6,078 nt of DNA, taken from the NCBI GenBank assembly GCA_913053915.1, contig CAJXGP010000143.1, positions 1 to 6,078 on the forward strand, given 5' to 3'. The notes under the pieces are model-generated. The model was not told the DNA's origin and did not search any database. It saw nothing but the letters and a program-made list of their open reading frames with translations. Made by a program: the position numbers and the translations under genes. Below, piece by piece: positions 1 to 6,078 of this stretch. This DNA is from an uncultured Ignavibacteriales bacterium. Lineage in GTDB: Bacteria; Bacteroidota; Ignavibacteria; Ignavibacteriales; Ignavibacteriaceae. Within the stretch, counting starts at the first letter, position 1; each line of letters begins with the position of its first letter.

Positions 1-90
1 ATTCGCGAACAACTTGGTAATGGCAGCGGTAAAGAATCACCCGGTTTTAACGCGTTAAGTAAAACCCCTGCTTTGATTCGGTCATCGTTC
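1..90 (+). other. GC-richer leading segment of unknown origin
   Basis: The first 60 bases hold 27 G/C (45%, hand count), against 27-28% in 241-360. The segment reads in frame with the downstream gene (LGNGSGKESPGFNALSKTPA), but I recognise no family in that reading. A second frame (from base 2) reads FANNLVMAAVKNHPVLTR and stops at 56-58, and one reverse frame is also open, so the coding frame is unsettled. It may be a further fragment joined to the AT-rich gene around 88-100. Confidence 0.3.
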
Positions 91-1275
91 GAAATGTTTT
101 ATCTCACACAGAAAAATTTAAGCATTGAAATGATTTATAGTACAAAATATAAACATTGTGATGCCTATATGGTTGCTGGAGGTGTTCCTGATCCACAAAA
201 AGATCATGCGAGCAGAATCGCACTGTTAGCATTAGATATGAAGAAAGCTAATATAGAATATACAAAATCCGATAACTGTTTTACTTGGATAGGTGATATT
301 GAAAAAGCACAAGTAATTTCAGATAATATTGACGTCAGTAAATTCCATTCGAAATTAGATGGTTGGGTTGAAGAATATGTTCCCATAATAAAACCTCTAA
401 GCAAATTATGGACTATGAAATATCATTGGTCAATTAAACAAATTGAATATTCTACCGACATAATATTTAAGTCCGAAGAAAGATTAGATATTCTCTATAA
501 ACAATTACTCAATTATTGCAACAATACCGTCATACCGGAAAATGTTATGTCATTTTTAGGAAAAAAGTTATCCGGTAAACAAGCCGGCAGAATTCAAAGC
601 AGTTGTAAAAGAACTTATAATGGATTCCGTATAAAACATCAATGCGGATTCTTAAGTATTAAAATCTATAATAAATCCGGTAATGTTCTTCGTATTGAAC
701 TTACTGTAAATGATGTTTCCCAATTAAAAGTTTTCAGAGATGTTCATCATAAAAATGGAACTGTAAGCAAACAACGGGCTCAAATGGAAAGATCTATTTA
801 CTCGCTTATTCATATTATTCGTTTCGGTAAAGCTGACACAAAAAGATACTTAGACTTTCTTTCTAAAATGGATGATAATAGTAAAGCTATTTCGCAGCTT
901 TCCGAATTTACAAATAGAAAAACTGTAAATAACAAAAACTACAAAGGATTCAATCCGTTAAATGAAAAGGAAATTCAAATTTTTCAAGCGCTGATAAACG
1001 GCGCTTTGATAGCTAATGGTTTTACCAGTAAACATCTGAAGAGGTACTTATCCAAATATTTCAATGAACAGTGGAGTACTTCTAAAATTTCTCGTCTCTT
1101 AAAGAGATTGATAGTTTTTAAACTTGTTAAAAGAGTAAAACATTCTTACAAATATTTTCTTACTGAAACAGGTCGTATTATTTTTACTATGTTCTTAAAG
1201 TTAAGGAATCTTACTGTCATTCCTGCTTTGTCTATTTTGTTTGAAGAATTATTACCGGCTTACAATATTTCTTGA
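1..1275 (+). CDS. Uncharacterised protein with C-terminal winged-helix-like domain, 5'-partial and mosaic
   Basis: The frame is open from the window edge to TGA at 1273-1275. A TTG at 73 and an ATG at 94 are possible starts, but neither has a Shine-Dalgarno sequence, so the true start is probably upstream. Residues below count from the TTG at 73. From about residue 57 (KKANIEY, then SDNCFTWI, YHWSIKQIEYSTDIIF at 117-132, FRIKHQCG, SIKIYNKSGNVLRIELTVND at 195-214) the protein resembles, from memory, a widespread uncharacterised bacterial family. Members carry motifs such as RIKHxxG, KMYDK and LRIETTxND. The C-terminal part (about 297-375; SKISRLLKRL, then SYKYFLTETGR) looks like a winged helix, so DNA binding is plausible, but no function is known to me. 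Family members usually have an N-terminal block around an FGxxHxRxQTWFPF-type motif; here it is missing and replaced by a cyclase-like patch. The gene is therefore probably not functional as read. It is separated from sufB by about 250 bases and shows no link to Fe-S assembly. Confidence 0.6.
   Translation: MREQLGNGSGKESPGFNALSKTPALIRSSFEMFYLTQKNLSIEMIYSTKYKHCDAYMVAGGVPDPQKDHASRIALLALDMKKANIEYTKSDNCFTWIGDIEKAQVISDNIDVSKFHSKLDGWVEEYVPIIKPLSKLWTMKYHWSIKQIEYSTDIIFKSEERLDILYKQLLNYCNNTVIPENVMSFLGKKLSGKQAGRIQSSCKRTYNGFRIKHQCGFLSIKIYNKSGNVLRIELTVNDVSQLKVFRDVHHKNGTVSKQRAQMERSIYSLIHIIRFGKADTKRYLDFLSKMDDNSKAISQLSEFTNRKTVNNKNYKGFNPLNEKEIQIFQALINGALIANGFTSKHLKRYLSKYFNEQWSTSKISRLLKRLIVFKLVKRVKHSYKYFLTETGRIIFTMFLKLRNLTVIPALSILFEELLPAYNIS
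160..240 (+). other. Class III nucleotide cyclase fragment embedded in frame
   Basis: The translation reads DAYMVAGGVPDPQKDH followed by HASRIALLALDM. This is the conserved stretch of class III adenylate/guanylate cyclase catalytic domains that follows KTIG: GDAYMVAGG, then DHA, then IALxALDM. Only about 27 residues are present. The metal-binding aspartates, the FxDIVGFT motif and the transition-state residues are absent, so it cannot be a working cyclase. The preceding Gly of GDAYM is replaced by Cys (TGT GAT), which suggests the join lies at 157-160. The second join lies near 238-243 (ATG AAG). GC of 181-240 is 26/60 by hand count, against 16/60 in 241-300, which supports a separate origin. 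Confidence 0.7.
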
Positions 1276-1489: not shown

Positions 1490-1515
1490 ATGAGTCCGAA
1501 GGTAAAGGAAAATGC

Positions 1516-1523
1516 AAGGAGAG
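1516..1523 (+). promoter_or_regulatory. Ribosome binding site that decides the sufB start
   Basis: AAGGAGAG stands 3 bases (GGAG core 5 bases) before ATG at 1527, an optimal spacing. The in-frame ATG at 1512 would place this Shine-Dalgarno inside the coding sequence and has only a poorly spaced GGA two bases before it. The start at 1527 is therefore preferred. Confidence 0.7.
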
Positions 1524-1526
1524 AAG

Positions 1527-2975
1527 ATGAGCAATACAGAAGTAACGGCTATTGAAAAATTAGCCAATAAGGAGTATAAGTATGGCTTTGTAAGTGATAT
1601 AGAAGCCGATAGTTTACCTCCGGGTTTAAATGAAGAAACCATCGGAAAACTATCTGCAATCAAAGGTGAACCGGAGTTTATGTTGGAATGGAGATTAAAA
1701 GCATATCGGCACTGGAAAACTATGAAAGAACCTCATTGGGCTAATGTTCATTATCGGGAAATAGATTATCAAAGTATTTCGTATTATTCGGCTCCAAAGA
1801 AAAAGCCGAAGCTAAACAGTCTTGATGAAGTAGACCCGGAATTAAGAAAAACTTTCGAGAAATTAGGCATTTCACTCGAAGAACAAAAAAGGTTAAGTGG
1901 TGTTGCAGTAGATGCTGTTTTTGATAGTGTCTCGGTTGCAACAACATTTAAAAATACCCTGGCGGAATTGGGGATTATATTTTGCCCAATATCTGAAGCA
2001 ATTAAAAATTATCCCGGTCTAATAAAAAAATATCTTGGGAGCGTAGTTCCTTACACCGATAACTTTTTTGCAACTTTGAATTCTGCAGTATTCAGCGACG
2101 GTTCATTTGTTTATGTACCTAAAGGTGTACGCTGCCCTATGGAACTTTCGACTTATTTCAGAATAAATGCTTCAAACACCGGACAATTTGAACGAACCTT
2201 AATTATTGCCGATGAAGGAGCCTATGTTAGTTATCTCGAAGGTTGTACCGCCCCGAAGAGAGATGAAAATCAGCTTCATGCTGCGGTTGTTGAATTGGTA
2301 GTGTTGGATAATGCACAAATCAAATATTCTACTGTACAAAACTGGTATGCCGGTGATAAAAACGGTAAAGGAGGAATTTATAATTTTGTAACCAAACGGG
2401 GCGCTTGCAGAGGTATAAATTCCAAAATTTCATGGACCCAAGTTGAAACCGGCTCGGCAATAACCTGGAAGTATCCCAGTTGTATCCTGCAAGGTGAAAA
2501 CTCAATAGGTGAATTTTACTCAGTTGCGGTAACTAATAATATGCAGCAAGCCGATACAGGTACAAAAATGATTCATCTCGGTAAAAATACCAAGAGTACT
2601 ATTATCTCTAAAGGAATATCTGCCGGAAGAAGCAATAATAGCTATCGAGGATTGGTAAAAGTTTCAAAAAAAGCTGATAATGCGCGAAATTTTTCCCAAT
2701 GCGATTCGCTTTTACTCGGAGATAAATGTGGCGCTCATACATTCCCTTATCTGGAAATAAATAATCCTACTGCACAGATAGAACATGAAGCTACAACTTC
2801 TAAAATTGGTGAGGATCAAATTTTTTATCTGAATCAACGGGGAATTTCAACGGAGAATGCCGTGAACTTAATTGTAAATGGATATTGTAAAGAAGTTTTC
2901 AAGGAATTACCGATGGAATTTGCTGTCGAAGCACAAAAATTGTTGAGTATCAGTCTTGAAGGCAATGTCGGATAA
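1527..2975 (+). CDS. sufB: Fe-S cluster assembly scaffold protein SufB
   Basis: SufB is the main scaffold subunit of the cytosolic SufBC2D complex, on which Fe-S clusters are built from SufS-derived sulfur. The product is 482 residues from the preferred ATG, within the family's usual range of about 470-495. The N-terminal part carries the SufB signature [18 protein letters not shown]; the central and C-terminal parts form the expected beta-helix core domain ([50 protein letters not shown]). Residues matched by motif to the important E. coli ones are Cys240 (EGCTAP; E. coli Cys254), Cys392 ([11 protein letters not shown]; Cys405, needed for cluster assembly) and Glu421 (EHEATTS; Glu434). The C-terminus [18 protein letters not shown] is typical. 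It is the first gene of the operon, 66 bases before sufC. Nothing looks damaged. Confidence 0.97.
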
Positions 2976-2979
2976 TCCG

Positions 2980-3042
2980 ATGGTTAAAGGTGAAAAAATT
3001 TATCTTATAAAAGATATTTCAAAATTTGAGAGGCAAAATTAA
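2980..3042 (+). CDS. Possible 20-codon small ORF filling the sufB-sufC gap
   Basis: ATG at 2980, four bases after the sufB stop, opens a frame ([10 protein letters not shown]..., lysine-rich) that ends in TAA at 3040-3042. That stop overlaps the sufC start as TAATG. There is no Shine-Dalgarno before 2980, so translation would depend on reinitiation after sufB. The sufC ribosome binding site (GAGAGG, 3028-3033) lies inside it. It may serve only to couple translation of sufB to sufC, or be a chance open frame; 20 codons without a stop is not rare. I recognise no homologue. Confidence 0.2.
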
Positions 3043-3806
3043 TGCTGGAAATTAAAGATTTACATGTGAGAATAGAAGGTAAAGAAATCCTTAAAGGAAT
3101 AAATCTAAAAGTTAACACCGGTGAGATTCATGCAATTATGGGACCTAACGGTTCAGGCAAAAGTACACTGGCTCAAGTACTCGCAGGACGGGAAGAATAC
3201 GAAGTAACAAAAGGAGAAATAATTTTTAAAGGAAAAAATCTTTTGAAATTATCACCGGAGGACAGGGCGAGAGAAGGTATATTTCTTGCATTCCAGTATC
3301 CGGTAGAAATTGCAGGTGTAAGCAACACAAATTTACTGAAAACAGCTCTGAATGAAGCACGTAAATATCGAGGTGAAGAGGAGCTGGATGCTATTGAGTT
3401 TCTATCTCTTATAAAGGAGAAAATGAAATTGTTGGAGATGGATCAAACTCTATTAAACCGCTCTGTTAATGAAGGATTTTCCGGTGGTGAGAAAAAGAAG
3501 AATGAAATATTCCAAATGGCGGCACTTGAACCGACGTTGGCAATACTGGATGAAACCGATTCCGGCCTGGATATTGACGCCTTGCGTATAGTTGCAAATG
3601 GCGTGAATAAATTAATAAGCCCTGAAAGATCAACTATTGTTATTACTCATTATCAAAGATTATTGAACTACATTGTTCCCGATTTTGTCCATGTTCTGTA
3701 TAAAGGGAAAATAGTAAAATCAGGAGGAAAAGATTTAGCACTCGAACTTGAAAATAAAGGTTACGATTGGTTGAAAGAAAAGAATTCAGAGCCGGTAAAA
3801 AGTTGA
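3042..3806 (+). CDS. sufC: Fe-S cluster assembly ATPase SufC
   Basis: SufC is the soluble ABC-type ATPase of the SufBCD complex; its ATP-driven dimerisation reshapes SufB-SufD to allow cluster formation. The product is 254 residues, a normal SufC length. Visible motifs: Walker [10 protein letters not shown] (34-42), Q-loop in AFQYP (Gln85), ABC signature [14 protein letters not shown] (146-159), Walker B LAILDE (166-171) with catalytic Glu171, D-loop SGLD (174-177) and switch His203 in ITHYQR. SufC-specific features are the [18 protein letters not shown] stretch and the basic run after the signature (EKKKNE; usually EKKRNE). There are no membrane segments, as expected. A GAGAGG ribosome binding site lies 8 bases before the ATG. 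It sits between sufB and sufD, the usual order. Confidence 0.97.
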
Positions 3807-3845
3807 TTAATTTAAATCTTTCATTGCGGTTAAATTTAGATTTCA

Positions 3846-3861
3846 ACCGGCTATCCCCGGT
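3846..3861 (+). other. Small GC hairpin in the sufC-sufD gap
   Basis: ACCGG and CCGGT form a 5-base-pair stem around a 6-base loop (CTATCC) in the 93-base gap between sufC and sufD. There is no T-tract after it, so it is not a convincing terminator. It might act in mRNA processing or stability between the two cistrons, or be incidental. Confidence 0.25.
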
Positions 3862-3899
3862 ATGTGAAACATGTTCTAATTTAATGGAGAAAATTACGA

Positions 3900-5219
3900 A
3901 TGAATGAAGTTTTAGATATCAAGAATTGGTATTTAGAAAATTTTAAGGGCTTTGAGAATAGTCTGAATGGAGCAAGCTCCGGTTTTATTCATCAACTGAG
4001 GAAAAAAGCAATACGGAGCTTTGAAGATTTGAATTTTCCGACAACACACGATGAAGAGTGGAAATATACAAATATTGCACCTCTGCTTATGCATAATTTT
4101 ATTCCATCCGGAAAAGCGACTAATCTTTCTAAAGGAGATATAACGAAATTTTTATTTGATGATTTAAATGGCAGTTTATTAGTTTTTGTCAACGGATATT
4201 ATGTTAATGAGTTATCGGATTTAAGAAACTTGCCTAAAGGGGTTGTTGTACAAAATTTCGCATCCGCTTTAAAGGAAAATTATTCTATAGTACAAAAATA
4301 TTACGGTAAATATGCTGATTACAAAAATCACATTTTTACCGCATTAAGTACGGCGTTTATAAAAGACGGAGCTTTCATTTATGTATCCGACGGTAAAATA
4401 TTGAATGATCCTATTCATCTACTTTTTATAACCTCAACAAAAAATGATAAAATATTAGTTCAACCGCGTAACTTATTTGTTGCCGGTAAAAATTCACAAT
4501 TTAAAATTCTAGAGCATTATGTTTCATTAGATGAAGATACATATTTTACTAATTCCGTAACTGAAATTTTTACTGATGAAAATGCGATAGTCGATCATAT
4601 AAAACTTCAGGAAGAAAGTAAAAAAGCTTTTCATATAGCCCGGATGGAAGTTAATCAAGAAAAGAGCAGTAATTTTACTTCTCATTTGATTTCACTAGGA
4701 GGAGGAATTGCTCGAAACGACATTAATTCGCGCTTCAATGATGAAGGTGGTGAGTGCATGTTAAATGGACTTTTTCTAACTTCGGGTACACAATTATTTG
4801 ATGTTCACTCTATGATTGACCATGCAAAACCACTCTGCAACAGCCACGAACACTATAAAGGTATTTTAGACGATAAGTCAAGGGGAGTGTTCAACGGCAA
4901 AGTAATGGTTAGGCGTGATGCTCAAAAGACGAATGCTTTCCAGGAAAATAATAATATTCTTTTATCAACTGAAGCTTTGATTAACACAAAACCGCAGTTG
5001 GAAATATTTGCGGATGATGTAAAATGCTCGCATGGAGCGACGATCGGGCAACTTGACGCAGATTCAATGTTCTATTTAAAATCACGCGGCATTCCTGAAG
5101 ATATTGCCAGAGGGATTTTAATCCATGCTTTTGCAAGCGATGTAATAAAATATATCAAAATAGATCCAATCCGTAATTATCTAGAAAACATATTGGAGAA
5201 TAAATTTAATAAAAATTAA
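3900..5219 (+). CDS. sufD: Fe-S cluster assembly protein SufD
   Basis: SufD is the SufB paralogue that pairs with it in SufBC2D; the SufB-SufD interface is where the cluster forms. The product is 439 residues (E. coli SufD is 423). The N-terminal helical region includes the family signature [18 protein letters not shown] (about residues 46-63). The C-terminal beta-helix domain includes [19 protein letters not shown]-like [37 protein letters not shown] and [15 protein letters not shown]. His378 in CSHGAT corresponds to E. coli SufD His360, the residue proposed to help hold the nascent cluster. The C-terminus has [20 protein letters not shown], as expected. A GGAGA ribosome binding site lies 9 bases before the ATG, and sufS starts 13 bases after the stop, so co-transcription with sufS is very likely. 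The gene appears intact. Confidence 0.96.
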
Positions 5220-5232
5220 AGGCAGGTACGTT

Positions 5233-5784
5233 GTGAATACTAAAGTTCAATCGGCAAATAAAATTTTAAACCGTTTTGATGTTGAAAAAATCCGTAAAGA
5301 TTTTCCTATTTTAGGACAGACGGTTCATGGTAAAGCGCTTTGCTATTTTGATAACGCTGCAACCACTCAAAAACCGAAAGCAGTCATAGATACATTAAAT
5401 AATTATTACCTTTCCATGAATTCAAATGTTCACAGAGGTATACACTATTTAAGTGAATTGGCTACCAAACAATATGATGCAGCTAGGGTTAAGATTCAAA
5501 ATTTTATTAACGCCAAAAGCGAAAAGGAAGTGATTTTTACCAGAGGTACTACGGAATCGATTAATTTGGTTGCCGCTACTTTCGGAAGAAATAACATCTC
5601 CGAAGGAGATGAAATCATTAAAAACCTGGTGAACTACGTTATTGAAATTCCTGCAACCGAAGAAATTTTCTCTCCTCTGCTGGCTATCATTCCCTTACAG
5701 AAACTGGCTTATCATATGGCCATATTAAGAGGCTGTAATGTGGATCAGCCCCGAAACCTCGCTAAATCGGTTACGGTAGAATGA
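5233..5784 (+). pseudogene. sufS: In-frame chimera: N-terminal third of cysteine desulfurase SufS joined to the C-terminus of GlmS
   Basis: GTG at 5233 follows sufD by 13 bases with GGCAGG at 5221-5226 as ribosome binding site. Residues 1 to about 129 are SufS, the PLP-dependent enzyme that takes sulfur from cysteine for Suf[66 protein letters not shown] and SEGDEII. A normal SufS has about 405 residues. Here everything after the EGDEII motif is lost, including the HHSN histidine, the PLP-binding lysine and the active-site cysteine, so the product cannot be a desulfurase. From about residue 130 the sequence is GlmS ([39 protein letters not shown] at the stop). The 183-residue product lacks a working domain of either enzyme. 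Either the contig is misjoined here and the true sufS continues elsewhere, or recombination has destroyed it. Confidence 0.85.
5602..5784 (+). other. glmS: 3' end of glmS (glucosamine-fructose-6-phosphate aminotransferase)
   Basis: GlmS makes glucosamine-6-phosphate from fructose-6-phosphate and glutamine, the first step to UDP-GlcNAc for cell wall. Only the end of the C-terminal sugar isomerase (SIS) domain is present, about 54 residues. The final [18 protein letters not shown] is the near-invariant GlmS C-terminus, and [20 protein letters not shown] precedes it as expected. The part before the join (glutaminase domain and first SIS domain) is missing. Bases 5602-5619, coding EGDEII, could belong to either gene, because GlmS proteins often have a similar xEGDxxI stretch at this place. 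GC of 5641-5760 is 52/120, higher than the sufS part. Confidence 0.85.
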
Positions 5785-5785
5785 G

Positions 5786-5827
5786 GATGTGGGATGTAGG
5801 ATTTTTGATGTTTGATGTGAGATGTTC
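5786..5827. repeat. Six tandem GATGTNN-type heptamers
   Basis: Directly after the glmS stop, six 7-base units follow without a gap: GATGTGG, GATGTAG, GATTTTT, GATGTTT, GATGTGA, GATGTTC. Five of the six begin GATGT; the third is degenerate. Similar heptamer runs occur, from memory, between genes of some Bacteroidota. They do not encode a gene here. No such repeat is seen in the SUF part of the window, which fits a different source for the right end. Confidence 0.75.
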
Positions 5828-5834
5828 CGTACCA

Positions 5835-5862
5835 GCTTTAGGCATTTTATGCCCTTTATAGC
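5835..5862. terminator. Weak hairpin between the convergent gene ends
   Basis: GGCAT-TTT-ATGCC (5841-5853) forms a 5-base-pair stem with a 3-base loop, and outer GCT (5835-5837) can pair with AGC (5860-5862) in an imperfect extension. It overlaps the stop codon of the - strand gene and lies after the glmS end, where a bidirectional terminator would be expected. Neither side has a clear T-tract, so this is tentative. Confidence 0.25.
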
Positions 5863-6078
5863 TTCGTAGCCAGCACTGCTGTTTTCTTAAATTGCTTCAC
5901 CCGGCCGCTTTGGTCAAATATTTTGATGTAAAGGACGTAAATACCAACCGGAGCTTTCGTGCCATCATCTTTCAGTCCATCCCAGGAGAAAACCCCTTCG
6001 GTGCCCACATATTCATTGTTGATCAGCCTGCGTACCAACTGTCCGGAAGCATTGAAAATATTAATGGTCATGGTGTTA
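5856..6078 (-). CDS. C-terminal FlgD-Ig-like domain of a larger, probably secreted protein (5'-partial)
   Basis: The - strand frame is open to the window edge and ends in TAA at 5858-5856, so about 74 codons of a larger gene are present; the ATG at 6071 is most likely internal. The sequence has the layout of FlgD-type Ig-like/C-terminal sorting domains common at the end of large exported Bacteroidota proteins: TINIFNASGQLVRRLIN, GTEGVFSWDGLKDDGTKAP, VGIYVLYIKIFD and a basic tail GRVKQFKKTAVLATKL. In that phylum such tails often mark type IX secretion cargo or cell-surface proteins, but the main domain lies outside the window and its function is unknown. It converges with the glmS end. GC is about 45% (5881-6060, hand count), unlike the SUF genes. 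Confidence 0.75.
   Translation of the reverse strand, partial: NTMTINIFNASGQLVRRLINNEYVGTEGVFSWDGLKDDGTKAPVGIYVLYIKIFDQSGRVKQFKKTAVLATKL

Follow-up and report, generated by a model that had tools for sequence, protein, structure and literature searches.

SufS is a full-length class V aminotransferase with a PLP lysine and a catalytic cysteine. A failure of metagenome assemblers described in PMC7299287 is the chimeric contig, which forms where shared k-mers link assembly graphs. The reading frame considered here lies directly behind a SUF operon, begins as sufS and ends as glmS. It is almost certainly the seam of a chimeric contig that carries genes of two bacteria and not a real fused gene. 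The window, the whole stretch of DNA that was analysed, is 6078 bases long and is apparently a whole contig. Its features are as follows.

1-1275, + strand: ORF1, running off the left end; apparently another in-frame chimera
226-240, + strand: second in-frame join, at the word LALDM, where a cyclase-like fragment (about 157-240) meets the last 349 residues of an unclassified protein (226-1275)
1512-2975, + strand: sufB (NF008773, 918 bits)
3042-3806, + strand: sufC (TIGR01978, 375 bits)
3900-5219, + strand: sufD (TIGR01981, 297 bits)
1512-5219, + strand: the SUF operon sufB-sufC-sufD, ordinary and of Ignavibacteria type by its profile matches and SufD relatives
5233-5601, + strand: 5' part of a sufS of Ignavibacteria type (residues 1-123, ahead of the shared word; TIGR01979; 57-71% identity to related sufS)
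5602-5619, + strand: the join, at the shared word EGDEII found in both parent families (SufS relatives, GlmS P0121)
5620-5784, + strand: 3' end of glmS with its stop codon, from another lineage, probably Bacteroidia (NF001484 positions 551-601 of 601; P0121, 100%)
5785-6078, no single strand: spacer 3' of glmS and the C-terminal tail of a T9SS/FlgD_ig-type protein (6077-5856, - strand; PF13860, PF13585)

The sufS/glmS reading frame

The ORF at 5233-5784 on the + strand has a GTG start and encodes 183 residues with no interruption. An earlier note had read it as one frame running from a SufS start into the GlmS C-terminus, and hmmscan bore this out. Residues 1-129 matched SufS (TIGR01979, E 7.7e-47, profile positions 1-112 of 403), while residues 130-183 matched the C-terminus of GlmS (NF001484, E 7.6e-19, positions 551-601 of 601) and extended to the final position of the GlmS models. 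Both halves are highly significant family matches, so chance does not account for the fusion. Among the 120 matches listed of 6178, the window's own protein was the only one to cover the whole fusion, and the second-highest coverage, 89%, belonged to an ordinary SufS-type protein.

The SufS part was aligned with the sufS found behind sufD in 19 related loci, giving 57-71% identity over the aligned stretch. The alignment ended at window residue 129 in 17 of these first 19 loci, at residue 140 in L004 and at residue 155 in L013. In five further loci it ended at 155-157 or less cleanly, with low-identity extensions. The full SufS proteins of the first 19 loci, 18 in number, contain both SGHK (at 233-263) and RTGHHC (at 369-399), which we take to be the motifs of the PLP lysine and the catalytic cysteine, respectively. 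The exact SGHK was missing from one (L034) of the eight full sufS of a further 16 loci. Both motifs lie beyond the part of SufS that is present in the fusion, which covers profile positions 1-112 of 403 only and carries neither of them. Similarly, the GlmS half covers positions 551-601 of 601 only, and the matches to the N-terminal glutaminase (GATase) and SIS domains of GlmS, two of the latter being expected, were carried by the intact GlmS P0121 and not by the fusion. The predicted product would very probably have neither SufS nor GlmS activity, since it lacks the SufS motifs and everything in GlmS ahead of profile position 551.

Origins of the two sides of the contig

In the genome collection, 35 loci are related to the window SufD. 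Of the full-length relatives, the best (L001-L007, 66-67% identity) are from MAGs, five of them labelled Ignavibacteria, Ignavibacteriales, Ignavibacteriaceae or Ignavibacteriota and two Bacteroidetes. A full sufS ORF of 416-446 residues, stop to stop, lies directly behind sufD in 26 of the 35 loci, and the contig ends in or before sufS in five others (L003, L021, L023, L030, L032). No sufS was present in the DNA examined behind sufD in the remaining four (L025, where this DNA was just 977 bases, L027, L028 and L029), which are distant loci of Cryomorphaceae or Flavobacteriales with SufD identities of 42-43%. Wherever SufD is at least 50% identical, the locus either has a full sufS behind sufD or is cut by a contig end.

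The GlmS tail was compared with those of 16 genomes behind the SufD loci, of which 12 bear Ignavibacteria-type labels, three are labelled Bacteroidetes and one simply 'bacterium'. A match was found in 15 of the 16, at 59-65% identity. Over the last 54 residues, the window agreed with these 15 tails at 32-35 positions, whereas the same tails agreed among themselves at 44-53 (median 49, 105 pairs), which indicates that the GlmS tail is foreign to the group picked by SufD. When the tail alone was scored against 5.8 billion proteins, 7988 matches were obtained among the 8000 candidates scored. The top match, P0121, is an intact GlmS of 612 residues encoded on a 7137-base contig, and matches all 60 residues encoded by 5602-5781, EGDEII included, with 100% identity. 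The next seven matches had identities of 92-95%. The nearest lineage-named match among those listed was P0154 of Bacteroidales (78%), and other named matches among the best 120 listed were from Bacteroidales, Bacteroidetes, Mongoliibacter and Chitinophagales. The parent of the glmS part is, on these relatives, probably a member of Bacteroidia. The exact donor gene was not found in 395 genomes of the phylum, where the best identity to P0121 was 69-70%. Searches for the donor DNA in 291 genomes of one order, 8 of one family and 148 of another likewise did not find it, the best-scoring matches being 72-74% identical over about 150-180 bases, with higher identity over shorter conserved stretches. 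No match to 5560-6078 was found in plasmid records.

The possibility was considered that residues 130-183 are a natural variant of SufS and not GlmS. No point in support of this reading was found, and it is refuted by the complete identity of the last 60 residues with intact P0121 and by the reach of the GlmS models described above; the halt of most SufS alignments at residue 129 also speaks against it. Its probability is close to nil.

The base composition changes at the same point, from 34.1% GC over 5233-5601 to 43.0% over 5602-6078, close to the 33% and 43% previously claimed; the end of the contig, 5785-6078, has 43.9%. This end presumably comes from the same foreign molecule as the glmS end. 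The T9SS/FlgD_ig-type tail encoded there (PF13860, E 4.3e-8; PF13585, E 2.7e-5) was tried as a lineage marker and matched 30 of 32 genomes. The top four were glmS-side genomes (best 44%, E 1.5e-16), with SUF-side ones close behind (43%, E 1.1e-13), and the tail was accordingly given no weight as a lineage marker. The spacer at 5785-5826 has similar counterparts in several genomes of G088's order (for example G527, G644 and G671, 83-86%) and is perhaps a recurring intergenic repeat.

Judged by the protein comparisons, the two sides of the contig are from different genomes, and the chimera that the earlier note had suspected is upheld by the tail counts. Its further, conditional proposal, that the SUF operon would have lost its desulfurase here, is not supported: the GlmS tail is of another lineage, and the contig has a second join at its opposite end. 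A full sufS stands behind sufD in most of the related loci, apart from the five cut by a contig end and the four distant ones lacking it.

The words shared at the two joins

At the join, the SufS-type protein P0003 reads NNLNEGDEIIISGMEHHSN, and SufS relatives such as this one have EGDEIIIS. The word EGDEII is common to P0121 and 10 of the 18 SufS relatives compared with it, these 18 being drawn from the 26 full ones found, and is, as read from these proteins, native to both families. The sole other 6-mer common to P0121 and the SufS relatives is ASTKAF, in one of the 18, and no 7-residue word is common to P0121 and any of them. A word of six residues in common is unusual: when P0121 was shuffled, a 6-mer in common with a SufS relative occurred in 65 of 3600 trials, as compared to 10 of 18 with the real P0121. 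The earlier note's placing of the join at EGDEII, and its notion that so short a shared stretch could mislead an assembler, were upheld at the protein level.

At the DNA level, bases 5602-5620 of the window are identical, over 19 nt, to the sufS of the Ignavibacterial locus L013. In the other 23 of the 24 loci L001-L024 the identical run near the join is at most 15 nt. The seam lies in sequence common to both parents at the protein level, with an exact 19-nt match in the L013 sufS; that this exact match was seen in just one of 24 related loci counts against a misjoin. The residue before the word is Ser in the window and Thr in P0121, and the residue after it is Lys in the window and Ile in most SufS relatives. 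The neighbouring codons suggest that DNA identical between the sufS and glmS parents would be at most about 21 nt long. Such a length is short for an assembly overlap, which also counts against a misjoin; the early rounds of multi-k assemblers use k of about 21.

The second join is near the left end of the contig. Residues 76-424 of ORF1 align at 92% identity with residues 175-523 of P0241, a protein of 523 residues that is unclassified and whose first 174 residues are missing from ORF1. Of the 120 relatives listed, P0256 alone extends the alignment leftwards, to ORF1 residue 56. The alignments strongly suggest a break at residue 76. ORF1 residues 53-81 resemble a class III nucleotidyl cyclase (PF00211, E 4.6e-4, 20.3 bits, below the cut-off of 21.9), and cyclases in the PDB gave weak matches (E 0.0071 and up), so that the front part may, with moderate confidence, be read as a cyclase fragment. 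Since the cyclase side of this second seam depends on these weak matches, they are a further point against a misjoin. The word LALDM (window 226-240) is common to the cyclase-like fragment and the P0241-like protein. Ahead of this fragment, window 1-155 matched no Pfam family, and there may be a third seam near 155.

The P0241-like family (window 247-1275) has members of about 520 residues and no Pfam family above the cut-off. A few members are named MarR-like or predicted transcriptional regulator, and 109 of the 120 relatives listed are on contigs under 5 kb. The idea that the protein is a mobile element with many copies found no support; it was present in four of 80 genomes of one class, with one or two copies in each.

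How the join arose and how it compares with known systems

The evidence counted in favour of a chimera comprises the family split, the foreign tail, P0121, EGDEII, the L013 match, the GC step, the second seam, the uniqueness of the fusion and the missing motifs. The most likely maker of the join is the assembler, rather than a library step or a living cell. It would have followed the Ignavibacteria-type sufS up to the stretch coding for EGDEII and then gone on into the glmS of another bacterium, probably one of Bacteroidia. Because EGDEII is read in the same phase in sufS and in glmS, the seam would stay open. The true sufS very probably runs on normally in another contig.

A chimera could also have been made before assembly, by MDA or PCR or by ligation during library preparation at the short shared sequence, in which case reads would truly span the seam. 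The same two-lineage and shared-word evidence would apply, and two seams in one contig suit an amplified sample. However, both seams lie at shared words in the same phase, which is better explained by the following of exact shared k-mers. Such an amplification or library step, itself a form of chimeric contig, ranks second behind an assembler misjoin and is unlikely.

The remaining reading is a real recombination in which an Ignavibacteria-type genome gained the 3' end of glmS through about 18-20 nt of microhomology, with truncation of sufS, leaving the SUF operon dependent on another desulfurase. In its favour, the frame runs through the join without a stop, and the shared word could seed illegitimate recombination. 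Moreover, SUF operons without a neighbouring sufS do occur, in four of the 35 SufD-related loci, all distant and of Flavobacteriales type, which also counts against a misjoin. This reading has to contend with a second, unrelated seam within the same 6 kb, with a fusion found in the window's contig only among the 120 listed matches, with the full sufS or contig end in every locus with a SufD identity of at least 50%, and with a product that would have neither activity. That two in-frame seams occur at shared words of 5-6 residues, each close to an end of the contig, makes a natural event very unlikely, and real recombination is a remote, highly improbable reading.

The case shows how a chimeric contig can escape notice: where the shared word is coding in the same phase in both parents, a gene caller sees an ordinary intact ORF. 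Annotated unchanged, this contig would yield a fusion protein that does not exist and wrongly suggest that SufS has been lost. Before use, it should be cut at about 5602-5619 and probably also near 226-240.

The fusion resembles SufS (TIGR01979) in that residues 1-129 match the N-terminal quarter and the frame takes the place of sufS behind sufD, but three quarters of SufS are absent, including SGHK and RTGHHC. It resembles GlmS, the glutamine-fructose-6-phosphate transaminase (NF001484/TIGR01135), in that residues 130-183 fit the last 51 positions, but the first 550 positions are absent. The contig also resembles the inter-genome chimeric metagenome contigs of PMC7299287, in which sequence of two genomes is joined at shared k-mers. 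That review deals mainly with closely related species, whereas the parents of the probable misjoin here are distant and have no more than a short coding word in common.
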